Shown in pieces: positions 1 through 23,615 of a DNA stretch of 25,053 nt. The DNA lies in the IMG/VR virus record IMGVR_UViG_3300046836_000420, positions 1 through 25,053 of that record, one strand, 5' to 3'. The notes under the pieces are model-generated. The model was not told the origin of the DNA and made no database searches. It saw nothing but the letters and a program-made list of their open reading frames with translations. A program made the position numbers and the translations under genes. The number at the start of each line of letters is the position of its first letter. The first letter of the stretch is position 1. The DNA is from a virus.

Positions 1-764
1 CCATGGCCAAAACCTATGGCGTCGACATTGCCGAGAGCTACGAGCTGATCACCGCTACATCGCCCGGCCTCGTGGAGCAGGCGCAGGCCGCCTACGAAAG
101 TAGGGGGAAACAGAGCGGCATGGGCGAGCGCGCCTGGGTGACGGCCGAGATCATCAAGCGGCGCTGGCGAGCCGCGCATGACGGGACCACCTCATGGTGG
201 AAGGACCTCGAGCGCGGCACCATGGAAGCCATCTCGAACACCGACGTGCTGCACCGCGACGCCGAAAACCCCCGCGGCCAGAAGGGCGCCTTAAAGGAGC
301 ACCCGGTGATCTACGTCGAGCCGGTGAAGATGCGCAAGTCGGGATCGTTCCTGTGGGTGCGTCTGCCGAGCGGCCGCTCGCTCTGCTACCCCTTTCCGCA
401 TTTCGCGATGAAGGCGATGCCATGGGTCGACGACGAGGGGGACGTCGTGGTCCGCCGGGTGCTCGCCTATAAGGGGGTAGATTCGTTCACGAAGCAGTGG
501 ACCGAGCAGTATGCTTATGGCGGGCTGTGGGCCGAGAACATCACCCAGGCGGTCGCGAGGGACATCATGGCAGAGGCCATGATACGGCTGGAGGCGGCAG
601 GGTATCCGGTGGTCTTATCGGTGCATGACGAGGTCGTTTGCGAGGTGCCGCTTGGCTTCGGAACCTTACAAAATTTTGAAAAAATTATGACGGAAATTCC
701 GAAATGGGCCTTCGGGTTGCCTATCGCCGCGAGCGCCTGGGCCGGGGAGCGCTACCGGAAATGA
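1..764 (+). CDS. Family A DNA polymerase, C-terminal part (5' end outside window)
   Basis: Replicative phage DNA polymerase of the Pol I/T7 gp5 family (family A), which copies the phage genome in the host cytoplasm. About 253 codons are visible. The frame is open to the left edge and lacks the motif A region expected earlier in the protein, so the ATG at base 3 is very unlikely to be the true start. The best diagnostic is motif C, VHDEVVCEV, near residues 205-213, carrying the His-Asp-Glu of the polymerase active site. It is preceded by a helix of the form ENITQAVARDIMAEAM that is typical of the palm/fingers region of these enzymes. The gene ends in an ATGA overlap with the next gene, so the two are translationally coupled. 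It is on the plus strand, convergent with the integrase and the late genes, which fits a replication operon reading in from the left. No exonuclease domain can be judged because that part is missing. Confidence 0.93.
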   Translation, partial: MAKTYGVDIAESYELITATSPGLVEQAQAAYESRGKQSGMGERAWVTAEIIKRRWRAAHDGTTSWWKDLERGTMEAISNTDVLHRDAENPRGQKGALKEHPVIYVEPVKMRKSGSFLWVRLPSGRSLCYPFPHFAMKAMPWVDDEGDVVVRRVLAYKGVDSFTKQWTEQYAYGGLWAENITQAVARDIMAEAMIRLEAAGYPVVLSVHDEVVCEVPLGFGTLQNFEKIMTEIPKWAFGLPIAASAWAGERYRK

Positions 765-1036: not shown

Positions 1037-1230
1037 CGCTCCTGTTAGCACACCAGAATCCCCTTTCAAGGCCTATCTAGTCTAGTCATTTCAACGGCTT
1101 ACCATCTATATCGTAACGCTTCAGGAAAACATCGAATGGCATTTCTTGATAATTCGGTTCGTTGAAAACGTTACATTTTTTGGGGTTGATAATCAAGAAT
1201 GCCGACACCCATCAAGGTTGACGCGCCAGC
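1037..1230. other. Convergent intergenic region; candidate attP/terminator region
   Basis: This 194-base non-coding gap separates the plus-strand polymerase operon from the minus-strand integrase. It is clearly more AT-rich than its surroundings and has a T6 run at 1176-1181. It contains an interrupted inverted repeat (separate entry) and two copies of TTGATAAT (1146-1153 and 1186-1193), the second within the perfect palindrome TTGATAATCAA (1186-1196). Phage attP sites commonly lie beside int and carry short repeated arm-type sites, so this is the best attP candidate in the window. No tRNA 3' end was recognised, so the core cannot be named. No strong GC-rich stem followed by a T-run was found for either operon. 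Confidence 0.5.
1138..1203. repeat. Interrupted inverted repeat downstream of int
   Basis: The left arm GGCATTTCTTGAT (1138-1150) and the right arm ATCAAGAATGCC (1192-1203) are reverse complements apart from one extra T in the left arm. They are separated by 41 AT-rich bases that include the T-run. The pairing is too good to dismiss for so short a non-coding gap. Possible roles are integrase or excisionase arm sites, a DNA cruciform, or a bidirectional terminator between convergent operons. The sequence does not decide among them. Confidence 0.55.
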
Positions 1231-2262
1231 TTACGCGGCCTGCTGGCCAAGCTGTGAAAGGTACTCGACGGAGCAGTGGCCATAGGCCCGCTCGACCGTG
1301 CTCACGGTGTCGCCCAACAGTTTGGCGACCGCGTAGATGGAAGCCCCGTCGAGCAGCAGGTGGGTGGCCCGGCTGTGCCGCAGCACGTGCGGGTGACGGC
1401 GTCCGTTGGTGATGCCGGCACGCCGTAATAGGTTCACGAAAGGCTCATAGGCCTTCCATCTGCGGCCGAAGAGCCAGCCATCCTCGGCGGCCGCGATGCG
1501 GCGATCCAGCGCCTCGCGCATCTCGGGGAAGATGGGCACGATAGGGCGGCGCTTCTTGGTCTTCCGCTCCCCGTCCTTGGCCAAGTGCACGCGGCCGAGA
1601 TCGAGCCGGACCTGCTCGACACGCAGCGTCTCAATGGCGTTGCGACGGGACGCGGTGTAGTAGGCCAGCACGATAAAGTCGTGCAGCCGGCCTTCCGCTG
1701 CATCGAGCACCGTGGCCAGTTCCGCCTTAGTGATCCATGGGGCCTCTCCGGCCCGCTCCAGCGCCGCCGGCAGCTCGATCGTCGGCAGGCCAGGGCTCTC
1801 CGGCGTGCCGATCCGCTTCCATCGCTTGGCGTGATTGGCCGCGGCCTGGAGGATGCCGAGCTCACGCCGGATGGTGATGACCGCGATGCCGTCGGCGGCC
1901 CTGACCGCGCCATAGACCCGGCAGCGCGGGATGTCGACGTCGGCCAAAGGCTCGTCGCCGAAATGGGCCAGCAGTGTCTTGACGCGGGATCGCATCGTCT
2001 TCCGGTCGACGCAGTTCGGCCCTTGCTCGCTCTCATACGTCATCAACGCCTGGCGCACCGTCATGCGATCGCCTAGGCGCATCCCGGCCATGTAGCCTGA
2101 ACCCGTGCTCAGGAACGCCGCGAAGGCTTTCTGCCCATCTTCAATCGTGTCAGTGCGTAGCGATACGCGCTTTGTCCGTCGAGCCTGCGGGTCATACCAG
2201 GCGGCGTAGCCGATGCCGTTACGGGTTTCAAACCAGGGTACCTTGCGCTGCGGACGAGCCAT
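1231..2262 (-). CDS. int: Tyrosine recombinase (phage integrase)
   Basis: A 343-residue integrase that inserts the phage genome at attB and removes it again. The N-terminus (MARPQRKVPWF, then a YDPQARRTKR stretch) looks like an arm-binding domain. Residues about 65-155 form the core-binding SAM-like domain and 175-335 the catalytic domain. Visible catalytic residues are Arg206 (TASRRNAI), a Lys in KTKKRR (about 235-237), His292 and Arg295 (HVLRHSRAT) and the nucleophile Tyr327 (VERAYGH). The position usually held by His/Trp in LGH is Asp318 (LGDTVST), a variant I believe is tolerated in some phage integrases. The ATG at 2262 follows a good ribosome site (GAGGAAATCAC) lying inside the excisionase gene, and the first 51 codons overlap that gene. 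It is the last gene of the repressor-excisionase-integrase operon and abuts the candidate attP. Confidence 0.96.
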   Translation of the reverse strand: MARPQRKVPWFETRNGIGYAAWYDPQARRTKRVSLRTDTIEDGQKAFAAFLSTGSGYMAGMRLGDRMTVRQALMTYESEQGPNCVDRKTMRSRVKTLLAHFGDEPLADVDIPRCRVYGAVRAADGIAVITIRRELGILQAAANHAKRWKRIGTPESPGLPTIELPAALERAGEAPWITKAELATVLDAAEGRLHDFIVLAYYTASRRNAIETLRVEQVRLDLGRVHLAKDGERKTKKRRPIVPIFPEMREALDRRIAAAEDGWLFGRRWKAYEPFVNLLRRAGITNGRRHPHVLRHSRATHLLLDGASIYAVAKLLGDTVSTVERAYGHCSVEYLSQLGQQAA

Positions 2263-2405
2263 GTGATTTCCTCGATCTGCTCAAGCTTGAATAGAGATTG
2301 GCGTCTCTCAGTACGGCCGGCGGGGATCAGTAGGCCGGTTTCGACGTAGCGTTGGATAGTTCTTGGCGAGAGGTGACAAAGCTTGGCAAACTCTCCCGAG
2401 CGCAT
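2109..2405 (-). CDS. MerR-like winged-helix protein, probable excisionase
   Basis: A 98-residue protein with a MerR/excisionase-type HTH at its N-terminus: GEFAKLCHLSPRTIQRYVETGLL, followed by a wing and an FKLEQIEEI helix. I chose the ATG at 2405 because it overlaps the repressor stop codon (TGATG). A longer version starting at 2504 would run 100 bases into the repressor gene and add a segment unlike any HTH N-terminus. The basic C-terminal half, after about residue 50, is encoded by DNA that also encodes the start of integrase in another frame (2109-2262). Its place immediately before int suggests an excisionase or directionality factor that bends attachment-site DNA. A transcriptional regulator of the lysogeny module is the alternative. 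The HTH fold is well supported; the excision role is inferred from context. Confidence 0.8.
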   Translation of the reverse strand: MRSGEFAKLCHLSPRTIQRYVETGLLIPAGRTERRQSLFKLEQIEEITWLVRSARYPGLKPVTASATPPGMTRRLDGQSAYRYALTRLKMGRKPSRRS

Positions 2406-2824
2406 CAGCCGGTCTTTCGTTTTAGTTCTCCATACTGGTCGTTTAAAAGCTGCATGATTTTCAAACCTGTACTGAAATCGACCGCTTGGTTTAAAAACAG
2501 CCACGCCCTACCATCACCTAAGTCTTTAAAATCTAAACTAGGTTTTCGATGGCTTGCGATCTCTTCCACAGGCTGAGGCGGCAGCAAAGCATCGCGCTCT
2601 ACGCCTAAAACTTTACATAGTTTTTGGAGTTGGGCCGGTCGGGGGAGGGTGCGGCCGCGGATATAGCCGGAGATGCTGTCTTCGCCGAGGCCGGATGCTC
2701 TAGCGAGCTCGGCCTGCGTCATGCCCTTGTCGAGTTGAGCCCTTTGAAGACGCTTGGCAAATTCTAGCAGCCGTGCTTGACGGTTATCGATTTCGGGTCT
2801 GCGGGATGTAACGTGAACTGTCAT
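2405..2824 (-). CDS. Cro/CI-family HTH repressor without peptidase domain
   Basis: A 139-residue DNA-binding protein. Residues about 19-80 form a lambda-repressor-like HTH (HTH_3/XRE), with TQAELARASGLGEDSISGYI as the helix-turn-helix. The C-terminal part (LDFKDLGDGRAWLFLNQ, then a helix KIMQLLND) is about 45 residues long. It has no S24/LexA serine-lysine self-cleavage domain, so RecA-stimulated autocleavage is unlikely. It is the first gene of the lysogeny operon, has a good promoter upstream (2868-2896) and is coupled to the excisionase gene by TGATG. The ribosome site is weak, and the leader of roughly 35 bases is short. It probably maintains lysogeny by repressing the early promoter, which lies outside the window. 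Its second half is more AT-rich than the surrounding structural genes. Confidence 0.88.
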   Translation of the reverse strand: MTVHVTSRRPEIDNRQARLLEFAKRLQRAQLDKGMTQAELARASGLGEDSISGYIRGRTLPRPAQLQKLCKVLGVERDALLPPQPVEEIASHRKPSLDFKDLGDGRAWLFLNQAVDFSTGLKIMQLLNDQYGELKRKTG

Positions 2825-2867: not shown

Positions 2868-2896
2868 TTTATAAAGGCAAAGAGGTCAAATATCAA
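2868..2896 (-). promoter_or_regulatory. Sigma70-type promoter of the repressor-xis-int operon, with palindrome over the -10
   Basis: Reading the minus strand, TTGATA (2896-2891) and TATAAA (2873-2868) are separated by exactly 17 bases. Each matches the sigma70 consensus at five of six positions. Transcription would begin near 2861, about 37 bases before the repressor ATG. The -10 sits within the perfect 10-base palindrome CTTTATAAAG (2867-2876), which could be an operator half-site or autoregulation site. No comparable rightward promoter facing the plus strand was seen. Confidence 0.6.
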
Positions 2897-3463: not shown

Positions 3464-3919
3464 TTAGGCCGGTGTCTTTGGCGCGGCTTCGCCTTCGCCC
3501 GGCACGCGGACCCAGACCCAGCGATTGGCCTGCGGCGACCACGCCCATACCCAATGCCCGGCATCCGTTGCCGGCGGGGGCTGGGTGGGCGGCGGCTCGG
3601 TCGGCGGCTCGACGGGAGGTCCGACCGGGATCTGCGCCCATGGCGGGCTGTAGCCTGGGTCCACCGGCCCACCCGGCACTTGTGCCCAAGGCGGTGAGTA
3701 CCCGGGGTCCACGGGTCCGCCCGGCGGCCGCGGCCTCGCCCACGGCGGCGAGTAGCCGGGGTCGACCGGTCCGCCGCCCTGTCCGCCCGGGGGCACTTGC
3801 GCCCACGGCGGCGAGTAGCCAGGGTCCACTGGCCCGGGAACAATCGGCGGGAGCGGGCTGTCGGCTGGGACTCCAAGGATATTGACTGTCTGGCCAGGCT
3901 TAACCGTAATCGTAGCCAT
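3464..3919 (-). CDS. Proline-rich protein with four GPVDPGYSPPWA repeats
   Basis: A 151-residue protein. It starts MATITVKPGQTVNI after a strong ribosome site (AAGGAG, 8-base spacer). Four exact copies of GPVDPGYSPPWA begin at residues 29, 50, 68 and 84, spaced 21, 18 and 16 residues apart by Gly/Pro linkers. A PPTEPPPTQPPP stretch and a Trp-rich end (HWVWAWSP, RWVWVRVP) follow. There is no signal peptide or membrane segment. Pro-rich repeat proteins ending in aromatic Val/Trp motifs occur near lysis genes in some phages of soil Alphaproteobacteria, but I know of no defined function. It may be an extended linker or adhesive virion component. The gene sits between the endolysin and the putative holin, on the same transcript. 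Confidence 0.78.
   Translation of the reverse strand: MATITVKPGQTVNILGVPADSPLPPIVPGPVDPGYSPPWAQVPPGGQGGGPVDPGYSPPWARPRPPGGPVDPGYSPPWAQVPGGPVDPGYSPPWAQIPVGPPVEPPTEPPPTQPPPATDAGHWVWAWSPQANRWVWVRVPGEGEAAPKTPA
3635..3835 (-). repeat. Four in-frame repeats encoding GPVDPGYSPPWA
   Basis: Four units of about 36 bases encode an identical 12-residue peptide within the proline-rich gene, separated by variable Gly/Pro-coding spacers. The DNA copies differ at synonymous positions, so the peptide appears more constant than the DNA. The spacing and copy number look prone to slippage or recombination. Confidence 0.85.
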
Positions 3920-3934: not shown

Positions 3935-4534
3935 TTACGCCGCATCGGGTTTCAGTGCGGCTTTGAATTTTGTGTAGTAGCCCTTGATTGTTTCCGCCTT
4001 GTCCAATGCGTTGACTATCTTCCTCGCATTGTAGGCGTCCTCGATCTTCTTCGCGTGGTCGAAAAACTTGGGCAATCCGACGCCCGTAAACCACCCCCCA
4101 ATCATCCCGTCGAAGAGCACAAGCGCCGACGTCTCGTCCTCGAGCATGCGGTGCGGGTATTGATGCATAGGGGCGTCGACTTTGTAGTGGGCCAGGAGCG
4201 CATCCTGGCCTTTCTGGTAGTTCGCCTCCCAGGTGAGCTGGACGTGCCCGCGCCCGTAATAGCACTGCTTGTAAGGCCCAGTCGGCTCGCCGTATGACTT
4301 GCCTTTCCCCTGCCCGTATTCCTCGATCGGCACCATCATGTAAGCCGTCTCGTGGAAGGCGGTCGCGAATGCGTAAGCTAGCCAGTTGTGGCTGTTCGCC
4401 GCCGCCTTCTTCTCGAAATATTTCTCCCATTGATCGAGCAGGTAGTTCATCCCGTCCACCTGGCGCTGGGTCAACTTGCCATTGAACAGGCTCTCCCTCA
4501 CTGAAGAAAAGAAGAAATCTCGGTTGTAAGGCAT
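3935..4534 (-). CDS. GH19-type (chitinase-like) endolysin
   Basis: A 199-residue muralytic enzyme of the glycoside hydrolase 19/lysozyme-like superfamily, expected to cut the glycan backbone of peptidoglycan at the end of infection. Visible signatures are AFATAFHETAYMM with the probable catalytic Glu62, a second acidic pair in VPIEEYGQG (Glu71-72), and YYGRGHVQLTW (residues 92-102), which matches the GRGxxQLT substrate-binding motif of GH19. A later NARKIVNALDK helix also fits. The length is right for a single-domain phage endolysin. There is no signal peptide or SAR segment, so a holin should be needed for release. The start overlaps the stop of the 1113-residue gene (TGATG), with AGGA upstream. 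It is the first gene of the lysis segment, directly after the ejection proteins. Confidence 0.9.
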   Translation of the reverse strand: MPYNRDFFFSSVRESLFNGKLTQRQVDGMNYLLDQWEKYFEKKAAANSHNWLAYAFATAFHETAYMMVPIEEYGQGKGKSYGEPTGPYKQCYYGRGHVQLTWEANYQKGQDALLAHYKVDAPMHQYPHRMLEDETSALVLFDGMIGGWFTGVGLPKFFDHAKKIEDAYNARKIVNALDKAETIKGYYTKFKAALKPDAA

Positions 4535-7500
4535 CAGGGCTGTTCCTGCTGGTTCTCTTCTTGCCGGCGCTTGATGTCGCTAAGCGCGTTCCCAGGCGCC
4601 TGCAGCAGGTAGCTCTTGAGCTTCTGCTGCTGCATCGGCGTCGCACGGCCGTTGCGCACGCCGTCGGCGATGGTGCGCGCCACGTCGGGGTTGAACAGCG
4701 CCTCGCGCCAGGCCCGTGCGGCTTCCTTCTCGTTGAAGTTGTTCAAGACGCGCAGGCCTATGTCGGCTGACAGGTAGCCCTTCGGGACACGCCCGCTCAT
4801 GAAGGCGAAAGCCTTGTTGAGCACGGAAGGAATGCCGGAGCCTGTCAAACCCTCGACGGCCGATGAGACTGTCGCCGGCGCTTCGGCGGCACCTTTGGGA
4901 GGTGGTAGCCGGCCTTCGACCTCGGCGGCTCGCGCGATCGTCTCGAGGTCGCTCATGTGCTCCGGCGTCAGCACGTGGCTGAGCGAAACGGCGTTGTCCG
5001 CCATGAACTGCCGGAGCTTGGCCGGGTCTGGGAGGGTGCTGGCCGTGCCGCCGCCGGCGCCGGTGGCCCGCTCCCAGACGGCGCGCCGTAATGCGGCTTC
5101 TGCGTCGGGGCCAGCGGCTTTCGCATTGGCGGCGATCTGGCGCATGACGCGAGAATCTTTCAATCCGGCATCGATGACCTCATGCGGCTGCTTGCCGAGC
5201 ATACTGGTGAGGTTCTCGTCGGCAGTGGCCCGACGCGCCGCCTCGGCCTCGCCCAGCCGCTGGTAGAGCGCGGCCGGATCTCGCGCCGATACGGCTTCTC
5301 TTAGCCAAGGGGCCTCGTCGAGCACGCGCGAATGCGACCTGACCCATTTGGCTACGTCGTCGGGGCCTATCACGCCGCTGGGGCCGACGCCGCGGCGGAT
5401 GTCGTCAAGTGCCGCATTGATGACGGTGTCGCGCGCGCCTGCGTCTTGCCCGTGAATCAGGTTGAACTGGCGCATCTCGGAAGCGTTGTTGGGGCCAAGC
5501 AGGCGAGGGATGATGTCCTCCGGCTTGATGACCTCCTGGCCGCTTGCGCGGGTTGCGCCGAGCTCCGCGCCGAGATCCTGCCGGAAACGCGGCACATATT
5601 GCTCGCGGTAATAGCGATTATAGTCGGCGAGACGGCTCTGGATGGTGCTCGGCTGTTCGGGCGGCAATGGCGCGCCAGGCGCCGCACCGCGGGCGATCGG
5701 CATTGCGGCCGGTGCACTTGGCCCGCCCGGAGCCGCGGGAGTGCCCTGGGCGTTCGCCAGCGCCTTTCTGTAGACGTCTGTCAGCCCCTGCCGGTATTGC
5801 TGGCTTTCCGCTTCGGTTCTCGCGTGCCTGACGACCTGTTTTTCTGCATCGGCAATCAGGTTCTGCAAATCCTCTGGGCTGACCGATTTCAGTCTGGCCA
5901 AGTAATCGGTTGCGAATTTCGATCCGGCTTGCCGCATAGGATCGACGGCGGCTGCAGGCGCTTGCGGGCCGGAGATGCGCTCTTGCGGCGCTGGCAGACC
6001 GAGCACTGGCGCTTGCGGCGCTTGCGGACCAGGTGCCGGCGCTTGCGAGATGCGTGCGACCTCGGCGTCGATGCCATCGCGCGTCGCGGCAAGCGCAGCG
6101 CGCGCATCGGCCGCCTCGACCGATTGAACCGGGCCCAGCTGCCGGAGCTTCTGGCCGACCTGCTGACGCGCAGTCAGCAGGCTGTCGATGTCGTAGGTCG
6201 GCGCCACGCGCCCGGCCGGCTGCCCTTGCGCGTCGAGGATAGCTTGTGGCCGGGCGTTGCCCAGGATCTCCCGAACCTTCGGCGGGATGACCGGATTGGT
6301 CAGGTCGGTTCCGAGGTTGTTCAGCCGGCCGACGATGGCGTTGTAAAGGCTCGTTGTCGGCTCGCGGAAGGTGCCGCTTGGATCGATGGCGGCACGCAGC
6401 CGCTGGACCTCGGCATTCGCGGCACGTTCGGCGACGTCCGTCGCGCCGCGAATCTGCGTTCCTGTCTCGATCGTCGAACGCTCCGGCAACGCCGCCGTCG
6501 CATCGCGGATCTGGTTCTCGAGGCCGGCCGGACCTTGTGCCGCGGCACGGTCGGCGGCTTGCGCCTGCCGGGTCAAGAGGTCGATGACCTGCTGGTCGGC
6601 GGGAGCCGCGCCTTGCACGGGCGGCACACGGCCGCCAGCGAACGCATCGATGGCGGCTGCGTTCGCGGCGCTTTGCCCGCGCAGGTTCGTCAGATCCTCT
6701 CCGGTTGCCTTCTCGCCTAACGTTCGCTCCATATTGAGCAATGGTTGCGAATTCATCGACTTGGCGACGCTCGGGTTGAAGCCGGGAATCGCCTGTCTCA
6801 ATGCCTGCGCCTCGTCGAGGTTTGCCTGCGCGCCCGGTGTGGCCATCGCCTGGCCCAGGTTACCGGCAACACGGCTCTGCAGTTTCGCCGATTGGCGCTC
6901 GGCCGCCGCGGCCAGCGCCTCTTTGATCCAGCTGCCGGAATTCGGGTTCGGTATGGAGGGGTCCGCGTAGATGCCTTCGCGGTTGGCATACTGGGTAGCG
7001 GCCAGGCCACGATCGGCGACGCCGGGCGCCATGCCCGCCGCGGCATCGACGATCCCCGGCGCGACCTTGGCGACAGTGCGAGCGATGATCCCGGTCGGGC
7101 TGATCCACTTCGGATAGGCCGCTGGGAGGACGCCGCCGAGCGCGCCGCCGATCGTCTCGCCCGCCACGCCGAGATTGTCCTTTCCGATCTCGGCGCCGAG
7201 GCCGGAGCCGATATTGGCAGCGACGTCGCCGGCGGCGAAACCGACGGGCTTTGCCGCGGCCGTCTCGGCGACGGTCGTGGCCGCCTGTTTCAGGACAGGC
7301 ATCTCGTAGAAAGGCATCGTACGCGATGCCGTCAGCGCTGCGCCGAACGGGCCTGCCGCGGCGGCTAATGGCAGATTCAGCATGGCCTGATTGCCACCGC
7401 GCATGGCGCCCCGCTCGAAGACATTCTCCGGCTGCACCGGATCGCGGTTGACAAGCTCCTGGTAGGCCGCGGCTGGCTGGTCGAACGGTTCTGGTAGCCC

Positions 7501-7875
7501 CAGCAGCTTGGCCAGTTGCGCTCCGATGACGTGGCCGGCCGCGGACGGCGCCAGCAACATGCTCGCAGCAGCCCTGTTGGCGCCCTCGAGCGCCGCCACG
7601 CCGGTGCGGCCGAATTCGAAAGGGCGCTCGACCGGTTTGTCGGTGAGCGGATCGATACGCTGGTATCCGCCGGCGGCATCGGCTTTGTCGGCTTGCGCCG
7701 CGGCGTCGATCAGGCCGAAGCCAGGCTGTGCGGCAGGCGTCGGCGGCACTGGGACGGCACCTTGCGGCAGCGGCACCTGGGGTTTGGCGTTGGGCGCGAC
7801 CAGGTCGTCGAACAGGCCGGTTGTCCGCGGGGGAGCTGCGGCGGGCGCGACCAGATCGTCAAACAAGCCTGGCAT
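4534..7875 (-). CDS. Large internal virion/ejection protein (T7 gp16-like by position)
   Basis: A 1113-residue protein, the largest in the window, at the place where T7-like phages encode the gp16 ejection protein that travels into the host envelope ahead of the DNA. The N-terminus has a tandem motif, GLFDDLVAP, at residues 3-11 and 20-28. Residues about 90-275 are Ala/Gly-rich with amphipathic or membrane-prone stretches (NLPLAAAAGPFGAAL; GETIGGALGGVLPAA). Then come long Ala/Gln/Arg helices and Pro/Gln-rich linkers (GPQAPQAPVLGLPAP, about 615-650). A helical C-terminal part carries KVVRHARTEAESQQYRQG-type coiled-coil sequence. I see no lytic transglycosylase signature, unlike T7 gp16. The start at 7875 directly follows the previous stop (TAGATG). 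Assignment rests on size, composition and gene order. Confidence 0.78.
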   Translation of the reverse strand: MPGLFDDLVAPAAAPPRTTGLFDDLVAPNAKPQVPLPQGAVPVPPTPAAQPGFGLIDAAAQADKADAAGGYQRIDPLTDKPVERPFEFGRTGVAALEGANRAAASMLLAPSAAGHVIGAQLAKLLGLPEPFDQPAAAYQELVNRDPVQPENVFERGAMRGGNQAMLNLPLAAAAGPFGAALTASRTMPFYEMPVLKQAATTVAETAAAKPVGFAAGDVAANIGSGLGAEIGKDNLGVAGETIGGALGGVLPAAYPKWISPTGIIARTVAKVAPGIVDAAAGMAPGVADRGLAATQYANREGIYADPSIPNPNSGSWIKEALAAAAERQSAKLQSRVAGNLGQAMATPGAQANLDEAQALRQAIPGFNPSVAKSMNSQPLLNMERTLGEKATGEDLTNLRGQSAANAAAIDAFAGGRVPPVQGAAPADQQVIDLLTRQAQAADRAAAQGPAGLENQIRDATAALPERSTIETGTQIRGATDVAERAANAEVQRLRAAIDPSGTFREPTTSLYNAIVGRLNNLGTDLTNPVIPPKVREILGNARPQAILDAQGQPAGRVAPTYDIDSLLTARQQVGQKLRQLGPVQSVEAADARAALAATRDGIDAEVARISQAPAPGPQAPQAPVLGLPAPQERISGPQAPAAAVDPMRQAGSKFATDYLARLKSVSPEDLQNLIADAEKQVVRHARTEAESQQYRQGLTDVYRKALANAQGTPAAPGGPSAPAAMPIARGAAPGAPLPPEQPSTIQSRLADYNRYYREQYVPRFRQDLGAELGATRASGQEVIKPEDIIPRLLGPNNASEMRQFNLIHGQDAGARDTVINAALDDIRRGVGPSGVIGPDDVAKWVRSHSRVLDEAPWLREAVSARDPAALYQRLGEAEAARRATADENLTSMLGKQPHEVIDAGLKDSRVMRQIAANAKAAGPDAEAALRRAVWERATGAGGGTASTLPDPAKLRQFMADNAVSLSHVLTPEHMSDLETIARAAEVEGRLPPPKGAAEAPATVSSAVEGLTGSGIPSVLNKAFAFMSGRVPKGYLSADIGLRVLNNFNEKEAARAWREALFNPDVARTIADGVRNGRATPMQQQKLKSYLLQAPGNALSDIKRRQEENQQEQP
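7792..7869 (-). repeat. Duplicated 27-base unit encoding GLFDDLVAP
   Basis: Two 27-base copies (7843-7869 and 7792-7818) encode the same nonapeptide at the start of the large ejection protein. They differ at three positions, all synonymous, so the peptide has been kept while the DNA diverged. The copies are separated by 24 bases encoding a Pro/Ala linker. Confidence 0.85.
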
Positions 7876-19388: not shown

Positions 19389-21587
19389 TCAAGCAGCTGC
19401 ACTTCCAGGCACTGGCCCGGCCGTCGGGGTGGGCACGTTATGGCCTGGTCCGGTCAGCGGCGGTCGCTGACCAGGGAATTGCGGCTGCGGCCGCGTGGTG
19501 ACCGGGCCTTGCGGCTGGGCTGCGTTCTGCGGGCCTTGCGGGCCTTGGGCATTCGGATTGTCCATCGGGTTGGCGCCGGGCTGCGAGGCCTGGCCGGCGG
19601 CTGCGTTGAGCGCGGCGATGGAGGGGGCGCCGGCGAGGAAGACGTCGTCGACGTCCATGTCGAGCAACGGCGCGATCTTAGTCCAGATGGCCTTCGGGTT
19701 GCCGCCGGGGGTCTGGAGCACGATCGGCATGGCGCGCTCCCACTTGGCGAGGTCGGCGGAGGCGTTGCGGCGCCCGGATGAGCCGGCCATGACGTCGAGG
19801 TAGAGGTCTTTGGAGATGTCCTCGCGGGACGACGGCATGTCCGGCCAGATGGCGCCTGGCCCGACGATCTCCAGCACCATGTCCTTCGACATGTTCAGGA
19901 GCATGAGCTCCCCTGTCGCGTGCGCGAGGTCCGAGAGGACGTCGTCGAGATCGTCCACACTATCTGCGATGGCGGCGGTTCGGCTTTCTTCCGCGATCGA
20001 GGACTGAGTGGCCGTCGTATCCGAGCTAGAGCCGCCAATATTAGCTTCCTGAGAGCCGACGGTGCGCAAGATATCATTGAAGGAGCCCTCCACCTCGTAT
20101 TGCTGCGGATCAATAGGAAATGTCTTGCCGAGCGCGATAAGGTTGTTGACGTCCTGACCGGGTTTCAGGCCGCGCAGTTCGAGCAAAGCGCCGGTCGCGA
20201 AACTCGCGAGCTTGACCTTGTCCTCCTCTTGCACGGCTCCCGCCGGTGCGAAGTAGCGCGGCTTATTGGCCTGGCGGTGCTCCTTCAGCCCCTGGCGGCT
20301 GGCATTGTACGACATTTGCGTATCCCTTAAGAGCATGACATCGCTCTCGGGATGGATCTGGACCTCCGATTCGGGCTCGTTGAACACGAGCGGGAAGATC
20401 GGCCAAAAGCGGCTGATGACGACCTCGGGGATGCCAGGTTCGCGCAGGAAATCCGGATACCCCTCACAGATCTCGTGCACGCGGGCCCGGTCCTTGCCGC
20501 CGGTTGAATTGCGCCGGTCCGAATCATCGATGATGTCTGAACGGCTGGCGCCCTCCTGGTCGTTCTTCGGCCCGGTGTAGGCGGTGAAGGACGAGCCGAC
20601 GTCGACCTTGTAGATTTCAAGGATCTCGTCGGGCATCAAGTCGAAGCTATGCGCCACCCAGCGAGCGCCGGCGAAGGTCTTAAGGTTGCGGCACTTGGGA
20701 TCGATGAGGATCTCGTGAGCTGCCGGGAAATCGAACACCGGACCTTCACGGACGACAATGTAGGCCTGGTTCTGCAATTGCTGCTGAAGCAGACGGAGCT
20801 CCTCCATCTTGGCGTCGTCCGGCTGGATGTCGCCGTCCGCCACTTCCGCCTGCATCGCTTGCAACGCGGAAATCTGGGAGGTCACGTCATCGATCTGAGC
20901 CGCGATCTCCGGGCGCTGCTCGAGCACGCGCTGAAAACACAATTTGACGTAACCGACGCCGGTGACTTTGCTGCGCCGCAGCGCAGACTTGAACTGGGTC
21001 TTGAATTTGACTTCCTGGGCTTTCAGAAAATAGTCCCAGAGGATCTCGAGCGTCTTGCCAGCGCCGTCGACCATCCGGTTGTACTGCTGGACCTGCTGGA
21101 TCTCCTGCACGATCGCCAACGCATTCGGGTCAATCGCCGGCTGGCCGGTCATCGGATCGACGATCGGCTGCCCGGTCGTCGGATCGGTCGGCGGGTTCTG
21201 CACCGAGTGGATCGCGGCCATGAAGCTTTCCGGCTGGCCGTCCCAGATTTTGTACATCATGCGCCGCTTGCGCGTCGCCGTGGCCTTGGGGTTCTTGGCA
21301 TAGAGCTGCGCCACGATCTGGTTGATATAGCGGACCACCACGGGGACGACGTAGCGGTTGGCCTTCACCCACTCCTCGGTGGCTCCCATGGTGGCGAGGT
21401 ACTGCGCCTTGCGCATCTTCTTGAAGCGCGGGCGCCAGTATTTCTGGGCGCGGCGAATGCGATCCTGCCACTGCTTGACGAGCGCGGCCCGCGAAGGCGG
21501 CACATCGGGCGGTGTGGTCGAGCTCGAGTTCTCCGGGGCTGCCGGGATGCTCGGGTCGCCTTCGTTCAGGATCTCGGTGTCCATCAT
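19389..21587 (-). CDS. Portal (head-tail connector) protein
   Basis: A 732-residue portal that forms the dodecameric DNA entry vertex. Supporting features include the basic N-terminal helix SRAALVKQWQDRIRRAQKYW and ANRYVVPVVVRYINQIVAQLY, followed by a long helix (VQQYNRMVDGAGKTLEILWD). A strand region (ALRRSKVTGVGYVKLCF) and a C-terminal helical segment (SSDTTATQSSIAEESRTAAI), typical of podovirus portals, also fit. The last 70 residues are Gln/Pro/Gly-rich low complexity. It starts with two adjacent ATGs at 21587, the first overlapping the upstream stop (ATGA). Length is longer than T7 gp8 (about 536 residues) but in the range of P22-size and N4-size portals. The stop is followed by a 48-base gap before the scaffold. 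Confidence 0.88.
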   Translation of the reverse strand: MMDTEILNEGDPSIPAAPENSSSTTPPDVPPSRAALVKQWQDRIRRAQKYWRPRFKKMRKAQYLATMGATEEWVKANRYVVPVVVRYINQIVAQLYAKNPKATATRKRRMMYKIWDGQPESFMAAIHSVQNPPTDPTTGQPIVDPMTGQPAIDPNALAIVQEIQQVQQYNRMVDGAGKTLEILWDYFLKAQEVKFKTQFKSALRRSKVTGVGYVKLCFQRVLEQRPEIAAQIDDVTSQISALQAMQAEVADGDIQPDDAKMEELRLLQQQLQNQAYIVVREGPVFDFPAAHEILIDPKCRNLKTFAGARWVAHSFDLMPDEILEIYKVDVGSSFTAYTGPKNDQEGASRSDIIDDSDRRNSTGGKDRARVHEICEGYPDFLREPGIPEVVISRFWPIFPLVFNEPESEVQIHPESDVMLLRDTQMSYNASRQGLKEHRQANKPRYFAPAGAVQEEDKVKLASFATGALLELRGLKPGQDVNNLIALGKTFPIDPQQYEVEGSFNDILRTVGSQEANIGGSSSDTTATQSSIAEESRTAAIADSVDDLDDVLSDLAHATGELMLLNMSKDMVLEIVGPGAIWPDMPSSREDISKDLYLDVMAGSSGRRNASADLAKWERAMPIVLQTPGGNPKAIWTKIAPLLDMDVDDVFLAGAPSIAALNAAAGQASQPGANPMDNPNAQGPQGPQNAAQPQGPVTTRPQPQFPGQRPPLTGPGHNVPTPTAGPVPGSAAA

Positions 21588-21986: not shown

Positions 21987-23615
21987 TCACCACCCTGCCA
22001 ACGCCTTCTCGCGCTGGTCCTTCTCGGCGCGCTTCTTCGTCTTGGCCAAGATCCACTGGATAGACCCCACCTTCACCACGTTGTCGGTGAAGTCCTTCTT
22101 GATCGAGGGTCGATATATCTTCTGTAGCCCTAAGCCCACATGCGCCAGGAAGTCGACAAAATCGTCATGCGCCCCGTTGGGGAACTGCAAGAGCTCCTTC
22201 TTGGCATCCGGCCACCACCAGGCGTAGCGCGGGAAGTGGACACGGCGATGGGCGATATAGCCCCGGATCGACTGGGCTCTGGTCGACTTGTCCGCTGCCA
22301 CGGTCACGTCGTCAATGGTCGTGAAGATGTCCTCCTCGCGCATGCGCTTGTACAAGAACGGGCCGAAGGATTTGGCGATCAGATCGCTCTCCATCCACCA
22401 CAAAGCCGGGTTGTGGGCCTGCATCTGGGTCAAGAGCTCCTCGACGGTCTTGTCGGTCGCCATGCGCTCCCAGACGAGGTCCGGCAGCACCCAGATATCA
22501 TCGTCCTTGTCGACGCCGACACAGCCCAGACAGGTCGGATCGGCGCTTTTCTTGGTCGAGACGGCGTGATCCGACGCTCCGTAGAGCGTCAGCTCCGTTT
22601 CGGCCGGCAATTCGGCCTCGTCGTACTCGACGAAGCCCGCCGCCTTGAAATATTCGCCGTCCTCGGCGGTCGGGGCGCCCATGTAGAGCGAGGTGAAGCC
22701 GCTCGAGTCCATTTGCTTGGCCTCGGCGAGGATGTCGAGGTCTTTCCGGCCCGGCCAGAGCGCCGACATTGGTTTTGAGCCAAACATCGAGACGACAAGA
22801 GGATCGGTTTGAGGCTGAAGCGTCAATCCGAGCGCCTTGGCGAGGGCTGGGTCCTCCACGACAGCCGGCACGTTGACATATTTCCAGCGTTCGGCAATTC
22901 CTTTGTATTTCTTGTTGCGATCGGGGTGCTCCGGGTCGCAAAGGCGGCCTATGAGGTCATCCCCGTGCCAGCGCGTATGCACGATGCAGACGCCGGAGCC
23001 GGAATGGCAGCGGGTGAGCACCACCCGGTTGAACCAACGCCATACCTCCTCTCGCGTGAGGTCGGATTGGGCCTCGATGTCATCTTTGATGGGGTCGTCG
23101 ACGATGAAGAAGTCCGCCGGACGCCCTGTGCCGGAGCCGCCGCGCCCGACGAAGGAGAAACGTCCTCCTTCCCGGGTGATAAGTGAATTGGTGGCTTCCT
23201 TGCGGAGCTCATGACCCTCGAAAACCTGCCGGTAGGCGTCGGATTGGATGATGTCCCGGACAAGATCGCCCTCCTCGTCGGCCTTCGGCTGATTGAAGGT
23301 GCCGAGAATGGCGTTGGCGGTCGGCCTTTTGCCAGCCAGCCAGGCTAGGAAGCGCCGGCAGATGATCTCCGTCTTGCCGAGCTGCGGGCCTATCGACACG
23401 GCGACCCGCTTCTCCTCGCCCCGGAAGACCTTGCCCATCACGTCGCAAAGGAGACGGGCAACCGGCGTCTCCTCGTAACGGCTTCTTGTCACGTCGTCGG
23501 GATCATCCGGGTCCGGCATGGTCAATTTGATGAAAGGGAGCAAGTTGTCCTTCGCCTCGCGAATAGCGATGAGCCGTCGTGCGGCTTTCAACTGCTCGAT
23601 GCGCGGATCGATCAT
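21987..23615 (-). CDS. terL: Terminase large subunit (packaging ATPase/nuclease)
   Basis: A 542-residue DNA packaging motor. The ATPase domain shows the Walker A-like GPQLGKT (76-82), Walker B FIVDDP (170-175, with Asp173/Asp174) and the TRWHGDDL block (214-221). The C-terminal RNase H-like nuclease shows Asp349 (YGASDHA), Glu409 (WWMESD) and the HDDFVDFLAH motif (483-492), giving the three metal-binding acids. All key residues are present, so it should be active. The ATG at 23615 overlaps the stop of the tail fibre gene (ATGA). No small terminase subunit was recognised in the window; it may lie upstream beyond the right edge. Confidence 0.95.
   Translation of the reverse strand: MIDPRIEQLKAARRLIAIREAKDNLLPFIKLTMPDPDDPDDVTRSRYEETPVARLLCDVMGKVFRGEEKRVAVSIGPQLGKTEIICRRFLAWLAGKRPTANAILGTFNQPKADEEGDLVRDIIQSDAYRQVFEGHELRKEATNSLITREGGRFSFVGRGGSGTGRPADFFIVDDPIKDDIEAQSDLTREEVWRWFNRVVLTRCHSGSGVCIVHTRWHGDDLIGRLCDPEHPDRNKKYKGIAERWKYVNVPAVVEDPALAKALGLTLQPQTDPLVVSMFGSKPMSALWPGRKDLDILAEAKQMDSSGFTSLYMGAPTAEDGEYFKAAGFVEYDEAELPAETELTLYGASDHAVSTKKSADPTCLGCVGVDKDDDIWVLPDLVWERMATDKTVEELLTQMQAHNPALWWMESDLIAKSFGPFLYKRMREEDIFTTIDDVTVAADKSTRAQSIRGYIAHRRVHFPRYAWWWPDAKKELLQFPNGAHDDFVDFLAHVGLGLQKIYRPSIKKDFTDNVVKVGSIQWILAKTKKRAEKDQREKALAGW

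Follow-up and report, generated by a model that had tools for sequence, protein, structure and literature searches.

In the best-known switches, the excision factor of a temperate phage is under lytic control. The P2-like Salmonella phage SW3 has an XRE repressor followed by int, adjacent and on the same strand, with its directionality factor Cox on the opposite strand. The accessible part of one report on a P2-like phage likewise assigns integrase and repressor to a lysogenic module and Cox to a lytic module (PMC10321612). In mycobacteriophage BPs, the repressor and integrase share a direction of transcription, and attP lies inside the repressor gene, an arrangement that makes immunity dependent on integration; the available portion of that report mentions no excisionase gene within the repressor-integrase pair (PMC4557955). 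The Streptomyces element pSAM2 carries repSA, xis, and int in one operon activated by Pra, according to the accessible text (PMC3218068). In Rhizobium phage 16-3 and in phi3LM21, RHph_Y25, and POI1126, an open reading frame (ORF) before int overlaps it in the +1 frame, and no gene annotated as a repressor lies directly in front.

The window analyzed here, a virus record of 25,053 bases and probably a fragment, carries a repressor gene, an excisionase-like gene, and an integrase gene (rep, xis, and int; below, the trio). The features discussed are as follows.

2405-2824, minus strand: rep, Cro/CI-type HTH repressor, 139 aa (Pfam HTH_3, 2.1e-12)
2109-2405, minus strand: xis-like gene, MerR/HTH_17 protein, 98 aa (Pfam MerR, 2.7e-9)
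1231-2262, minus strand: int, tyrosine recombinase, 343 aa (Phage_integrase, PF00589, 2.4e-15, above the cut-off; PHROG_1 integrase, 2.4e-40)
2403-2407, minus strand: TGATG, rep stop overlapping xis start, read directly from the sequence
2109-2262, minus strand: xis/int overlap of 154 nt, xis in the +1 frame of int, the int start lying 154 nt before the xis stop
2868-2896, minus strand: candidate sigma70-like promoter before rep, TTGATA-17-TATAAA, 10/12 consensus matches, the same in G002
2761-2790, minus strand: TCGATA-18-TAGAAT (TTGATA in G002) with a TG extension, a second promoter-like sequence within rep that might drive xis-int alone
2268-2273, minus strand: int Shine-Dalgarno sequence GAGGAA, inside xis, duplex energy -5.9 kcal/mol
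1040-1230, minus strand: noncoding stretch after int, candidate attP arms, with inverted repeats at 1143-1153/1189-1199 and others
3-764, plus strand: family A DNA polymerase, its 3' end faced by the int of the trio
3935-4534, minus strand: putative endolysin (PHROG_181 match)
21987-23615, minus strand: terminase (phage match)

The minus strand carries most of the long ORFs with phage matches in the window, and the gene upstream of rep is co-directional with it. The ORF listing and the Pfam matches agree on three minus-strand genes where the first-pass annotation had placed them. The TGATG join that it described between the repressor and a MerR-like, excisionase-like gene is read at 2407-2403, and the integrase does start within the excisionase-like gene, at 2262, with 154 nt common to both. 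Elsewhere in the window, the ORF at 3464-3919 encodes a proline-rich unit like GPVDPGYSPPWAQ, repeated several times.

Set beside these systems, the window resembles SW3 in strand and gene order, but it has a xis-like gene between repressor and integrase, on their strand rather than opposite as Cox is in SW3. It resembles BPs in the shared direction of repressor and integrase, and it resembles pSAM2 in holding xis, int, and a third gene together, although the third gene of pSAM2 in the available text is a replicase gene and not a repressor gene. It resembles 16-3 and its companions in the frame of the overlap, unlike them in having a repressor gene directly in front, where none is annotated in those phages. 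The statement that the repressor and xis/int are separately controlled in most temperate phages was overstated for repressor and integrase, judging from SW3 and from the accessible accounts of a P2-like phage (PMC10321612) and BPs; the presence of xis within the unit is what is unusual. Repressor and int are already known as neighbors in P2-like phages and BPs, and xis and int as overlapping genes in 16-3; xis inside a repressor-int unit is a distinct layout. Among the papers listed from the open-access literature, with most subscription journals outside, no title or first part of an abstract describes the three genes as one unit, and this argues only weakly that such a description is lacking.

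Conservation of the trio

The trio is in place in a near-identical contig of 30.6 kb (G001) and in a 48.3-kb contig about 85% identical to the window (G002; 76-89% by segment). Two named phages, Rhizobium phage RHph_N65 (L018) and Microcystis phage Mae-Yong1326-1 (L019), have a terminase and an integrase homologous to those of the window and, like it, carry a repressor gene, an HTH_17 ORF (7.7e-9 and 1.3e-13, respectively), and int on one strand, the ORF preceding int and overlapping it in the +1 frame. Their repressor genes are annotated as divergent from the neighboring genes, whereas the upstream gene in the window is co-directional, and in Mae-Yong1326-1 an extra small gene lies between repressor and xis. 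A classification of upstream-gene orientation by ORF length (21 divergent, 14 co-directional) was dropped; it miscalled both of these annotated phages.

Several side observations concern these relatives. The putative endolysin of the window seems to be swapped in G002 (20611-21321) for a different 236-aa ORF, as judged by eye from the translations. The repressor gene of G002 (22350-22769) has a third-position G+C of 0.45, and most ORFs picked in that contig have values of 0.6-0.85. Mae-Yong1326-1 (OP028995.1) bears the name of a Microcystis phage but has a G+C of 71.8%, and the matches tabulated in the accessible part of its description include Magnetospirillum and Shinella (PMC9503304). Its trio resembles that of the Rhizobium phage, which raises the question of whether a heterotroph is its true host.

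When viral contigs were searched with the repressor alignment, 47 loci emerged; the near-identical contig of the window (L027) was left out, and L018 and L019 were added, for 48. The integrase gene lay downstream on the same strand in 40 of the 48, and an excisionase-like ORF stood between the two genes in 39 of these; in the remaining locus, L069, a laxer search brought one out. Among the eight loci without int, the sequence runs out at the rep stop or no more than about 270 nt from it in three (L060, L061, L066) and continues in five. The excisionase model started from two seed ORFs, went through three refinement rounds on the candidate ORFs themselves, and was then applied in the later surveys. 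When the search began from int, a repressor was found upstream at 37 of 43 loci and an excisionase-like ORF at 36, figures that lean towards trio carriers because the integrase query was built from members with the trio; seven of the 43 were on contigs already in the repressor-first set, including the twin of the window and G002. After clustering at 90% integrase identity, the full trio was present in 32 of the 37 clusters from the int-first search. Pooling the repressor-first rows gave 54 of 59, but those rows entered only if full and a single full member makes a cluster full, so that 32/37 is the fairer figure. Trio counts are not counts of independent events, the members being related by descent. 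The comparisons below use 35 loci: the 39, minus L030, L036, L048, L051, and L053 (duplicates or near-duplicates of L029, L037, L046, L050, and L052), plus the window.

Three surveys for the repressor, covering 385, 274, and 394 genomes, matched 4, 1, and 2 of them, respectively, and each count includes the starting genome; few candidates were scored per genome (at most 11 among the matches listed for the first and third surveys), so that misses are possible. The seven matches comprise two full trios (G385, G005), three genomes with rep and int but no match to the xis model (G276, G004, G668), and two with rep but no int in the stretch read (G003, G164); three loci from a scan of genome contigs (L117 in G004, L118 in G005, L119 in G003) are counted among them.

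The repressor belongs to the PHROG class of transcriptional regulators and repressors, and its HTH_3 match identifies the DNA-binding domain of a Cro/CI-type repressor (PF01381); its Pfam matches include no peptidase domain. Over 18 aligned sequences, the window included, the C-terminal part is partly conserved, and a profile from this alignment matches the HTH domains of the 434 and P22 C2 repressors. Five relatives have no int after rep in more than 4 kb of sequence beyond it (L039, L064, L067, L072, L073), and none followed rep in the stretch read in G003 (L119, L126) and G164 (L133). These int-less relatives suggest that the repressor also works outside the trio. The arrangement itself looks functional rather than accidental, because the interlocked trio recurs in dozens of distant phages.

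The middle gene and its overlap with int

In all 35 de-duplicated loci, xis lies in the +1 frame of int, and the overlap measures 121-199 nt. This overlap probably predates the trio and reaches beyond it, since 16-3, RHph_Y25, phi3LM21, and POI1126 have the same frame without an annotated repressor directly in front. Its length says little about function. Synonymous shuffles of the int codons give equally long overlaps (mean p, 0.457 over 35 loci; KS P, 0.20), and open overlap length was for that reason rejected as proof of a functional xis tail. The shuffles are what would be expected if the tail were a by-product, that is, if an HTH gene had once been placed before int and its frame ran on until int residues forced a stop. 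Two further observations agree with that account: the tail of the predicted Xis structure is modeled mostly at a confidence of 45-65, and neither the first positions of int (0.119 in the overlap, 0.110 in the rest, over 10 pairs) nor its second positions, which are the first positions of xis (0.084 versus 0.053), are slowed within the overlap.

The third positions of int, which are the second positions of xis, behave differently from what a by-product would predict: changes there can be silent in int yet alter xis, and divergence is lowered. Over 10 close pairs, hand-picked as nonoverlapping from a longer pair list, third-position divergence was 0.196 in the overlap and 0.330 in the rest of int (Fisher P = 2.8e-9), with the effect opposite in 2 of the 10 pairs (L035/L070, L040/L041) and slight in L058/L059. 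At four-fold sites from codon 16 to the end of the overlap, divergence was 0.214; it was 0.467 over the 45 codons that follow (P = 3.4e-5) and 0.357 in the remainder (P = 9e-4 for the overlap against both outer regions together). This lowered divergence is likely due to constraint on the xis tail, and an embedded DNA element would look similar. We regard the by-product account as somewhat doubtful, although it keeps a real share of probability.

The product of the middle gene is a small HTH protein that overlaps int, in the position and size class of winged-helix/HTH proteins beside integrases. Its predicted structure comprises a confident HTH region (residues 1-55), a linker, and a less certain C-terminal helix (residues 75-91) that falls within the int overlap. 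By score, the window protein does better as a MerR regulator than as an excisionase. It matches PHROG_2474, a MerR-like regulator, at 4.7e-5, versus 0.0032 for PHROG_66 (“excisionase and transcriptional regulator”); TIGR01764 (“excise”) gives no match to it at an E value of 0.01; and fold matches of its model to MerR-type proteins reach a Z score of 8.6, although a Foldseek search of the model against the PDB returned no match at an E value of 0.001 or better.

This proximity to MerR regulators in both sequence and fold is what one would expect if the protein were not an excisionase at all but a second regulator (a switch protein resembling Cro or CII, for instance) or a helper of integration, and traveled with rep and int for that reason. 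The relatives speak against this. Proteins in the same slot are HTH_17 proteins that match excisionase models: TIGR01764 matched all six tested, two of them above the cut-off, and PHROG_66 was the best match in five of five. The gene lies directly before int and overlaps it, the place and the relative frame of the annotated xis of phage 16-3 (whose Xis had no Pfam or PHROG match within the thresholds applied), and the Pukovnik Xis is among the fold matches of the window protein (4j2n; Z, 6.0; rmsd, 2.0 over 50 residues). We consider a nonexcisionase role unlikely. That the middle gene encodes an excisionase is our best guess, because the same-slot proteins of relatives match excisionase models and the gene precedes int.

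Transcription, translation, and the integrated state

The first-pass annotation proposed a single coupled operon, and the layout that it described holds: the genes occupy one strand, they interlock, the rep-xis junction has no room for an RNA end between the genes, and the same organization is found in distant relatives and in a chromosomal prophage. A scan of the minus strand over 1231-2824 turned up no terminator-like site. The accompanying proposal that one promoter serves all three genes is a prediction. A candidate promoter is predicted before rep and is the same in G002, but a second promoter-like site is predicted within rep. Either site could be spurious, because chance alone would give about 1.1 promoter-like matches over the 1 kb scanned; position and noncoding conservation favor the site before rep, where the leader (2913-2840) differs from that of G002 at 2 of 74 positions (counted by hand from the alignment). 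Late read-through into the trio is also possible, since the genes upstream of rep are co-directional in the window phage.

The two downstream genes differ sharply in their predicted ribosome sites. Across the 35 loci, the median energy of the anti-Shine-Dalgarno duplex was -6.4 kcal/mol for int, -2.4 kcal/mol for xis, and -2.0 kcal/mol for random windows, and -5.6 kcal/mol was reached by 97% of int starts (34/35), 14% of xis starts, and 9.6% of random windows. The int site was the stronger of the two in 30 of 35 loci (Wilcoxon P = 1.1e-6, with loci treated as independent); in two of the 35 (L031, L059) the int start had been picked over a nearer one by its Shine-Dalgarno sequence, a choice that favors int. 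In 21 of the 35 loci, the rep stop and the xis start overlap; in 13 more, xis starts no more than 6 nt after that stop, and in Mae-Yong1326-1 the distance is 154 nt. Translational coupling of xis to rep is the simple reading, because a xis gene with a near-background ribosome site sits where the ribosomes of the repressor gene end. Hairpins hiding the int or the xis start were considered and rejected, there being no excess structure at either (z, 1.56 and 0.45). Control at the level of translation, one of the routes to directionality named in the first-pass annotation, could thus operate here, int having a strong ribosome site and xis not.

The same genes might instead be adjacent and yet form two units, with one promoter for rep and another, within rep or xis, for xis-int or for int alone, the overlap serving separate expression. 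Lambda, whose pI promoter lies inside xis, is a model for an internal promoter serving int. The promoter-like site at 2790-2761 has an extended -10 element and is better in G002, the long conserved overlap could hide an internal promoter, and the lowered third-position divergence would also fit a DNA element. The number of promoter-like matches expected by chance weighs on the other side, as do the placement of xis starts on or just after the rep stop, which suggests coupling, and the small share of xis starts with a strong ribosome site. We judge two separate units improbable.

One relative is found integrated. In a genome in the class of Zhengella mangrovi (G385, contig C1, L135), the trio is intact in the chromosome, with the repressor at 6037-6441, an HTH ORF from 6441, and int at 6599-7720. 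The prophage, 47.6 kb at 2387815-2435409, is bounded by identical 49-nt copies of the 3' end of a tRNA-Ala(GGC) gene; the repeat copy beyond int lies 690 nt past the int stop, and rep is whole. Integration in G385 neither splits the trio nor separates it from its upstream region, because the att repeats bracket the whole 47.6 kb with one copy past int. By analogy with this repeat, the noncoding stretch after int in the window is plausibly attP; no tRNA gene that might serve as an attachment site was found in the window. Lambda carries an element behind int, sib, and a hairpin or terminator after int was considered as a sib-like element and rejected, its folding being no better than that of shuffled sequences (z, 0.35).

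As for a chance arrangement, the sequence comparisons reject it, because the trio is kept in most of the relatives examined.

A proposed lysogeny module with its own excision factor

The trio is real and conserved, and it is probably one operon. Our reading of the whole, which we hold with moderate confidence, is of a conserved rep-xis-int lysogeny module that most likely forms one transcription unit, with Xis coupled to rep and Int made independently. A single mRNA would start before rep. Ribosomes ending rep would re-initiate at xis, so that Xis would be made only with the repressor and at or below its level, while Int would be made independently of rep and xis translation and more strongly than Xis. 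The resulting low ratio of Xis to Int would favor integration and retention of the prophage. Excision would depend on a burst of operon expression, which might come when the repressor fails and the rep promoter is released, negative autoregulation of rep being assumed. The model takes the MerR-type protein as the excisionase, and its tail, encoded over int, may contact Int or Xis.

More tentatively, we suggest that this could be a widespread switch in which Xis is slaved to translation of the repressor, the Xis:Int ratio is fixed and low, excision is gated by the output of the repressor promoter rather than by a lytic promoter, and the +1-frame tail is kept for contact with Int; taken in all its parts, this proposal is more doubtful than not.

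Such xis genes can escape annotation, as did the ORF in both RHph_N65 and Mae-Yong1326-1. In a large set of phages, and in at least one prophage resident in a chromosome, the excision factor seems to be housed in the repressor's own unit. This raises the question of how such prophages stay in, to which ribosome traffic would be a simple and testable answer.
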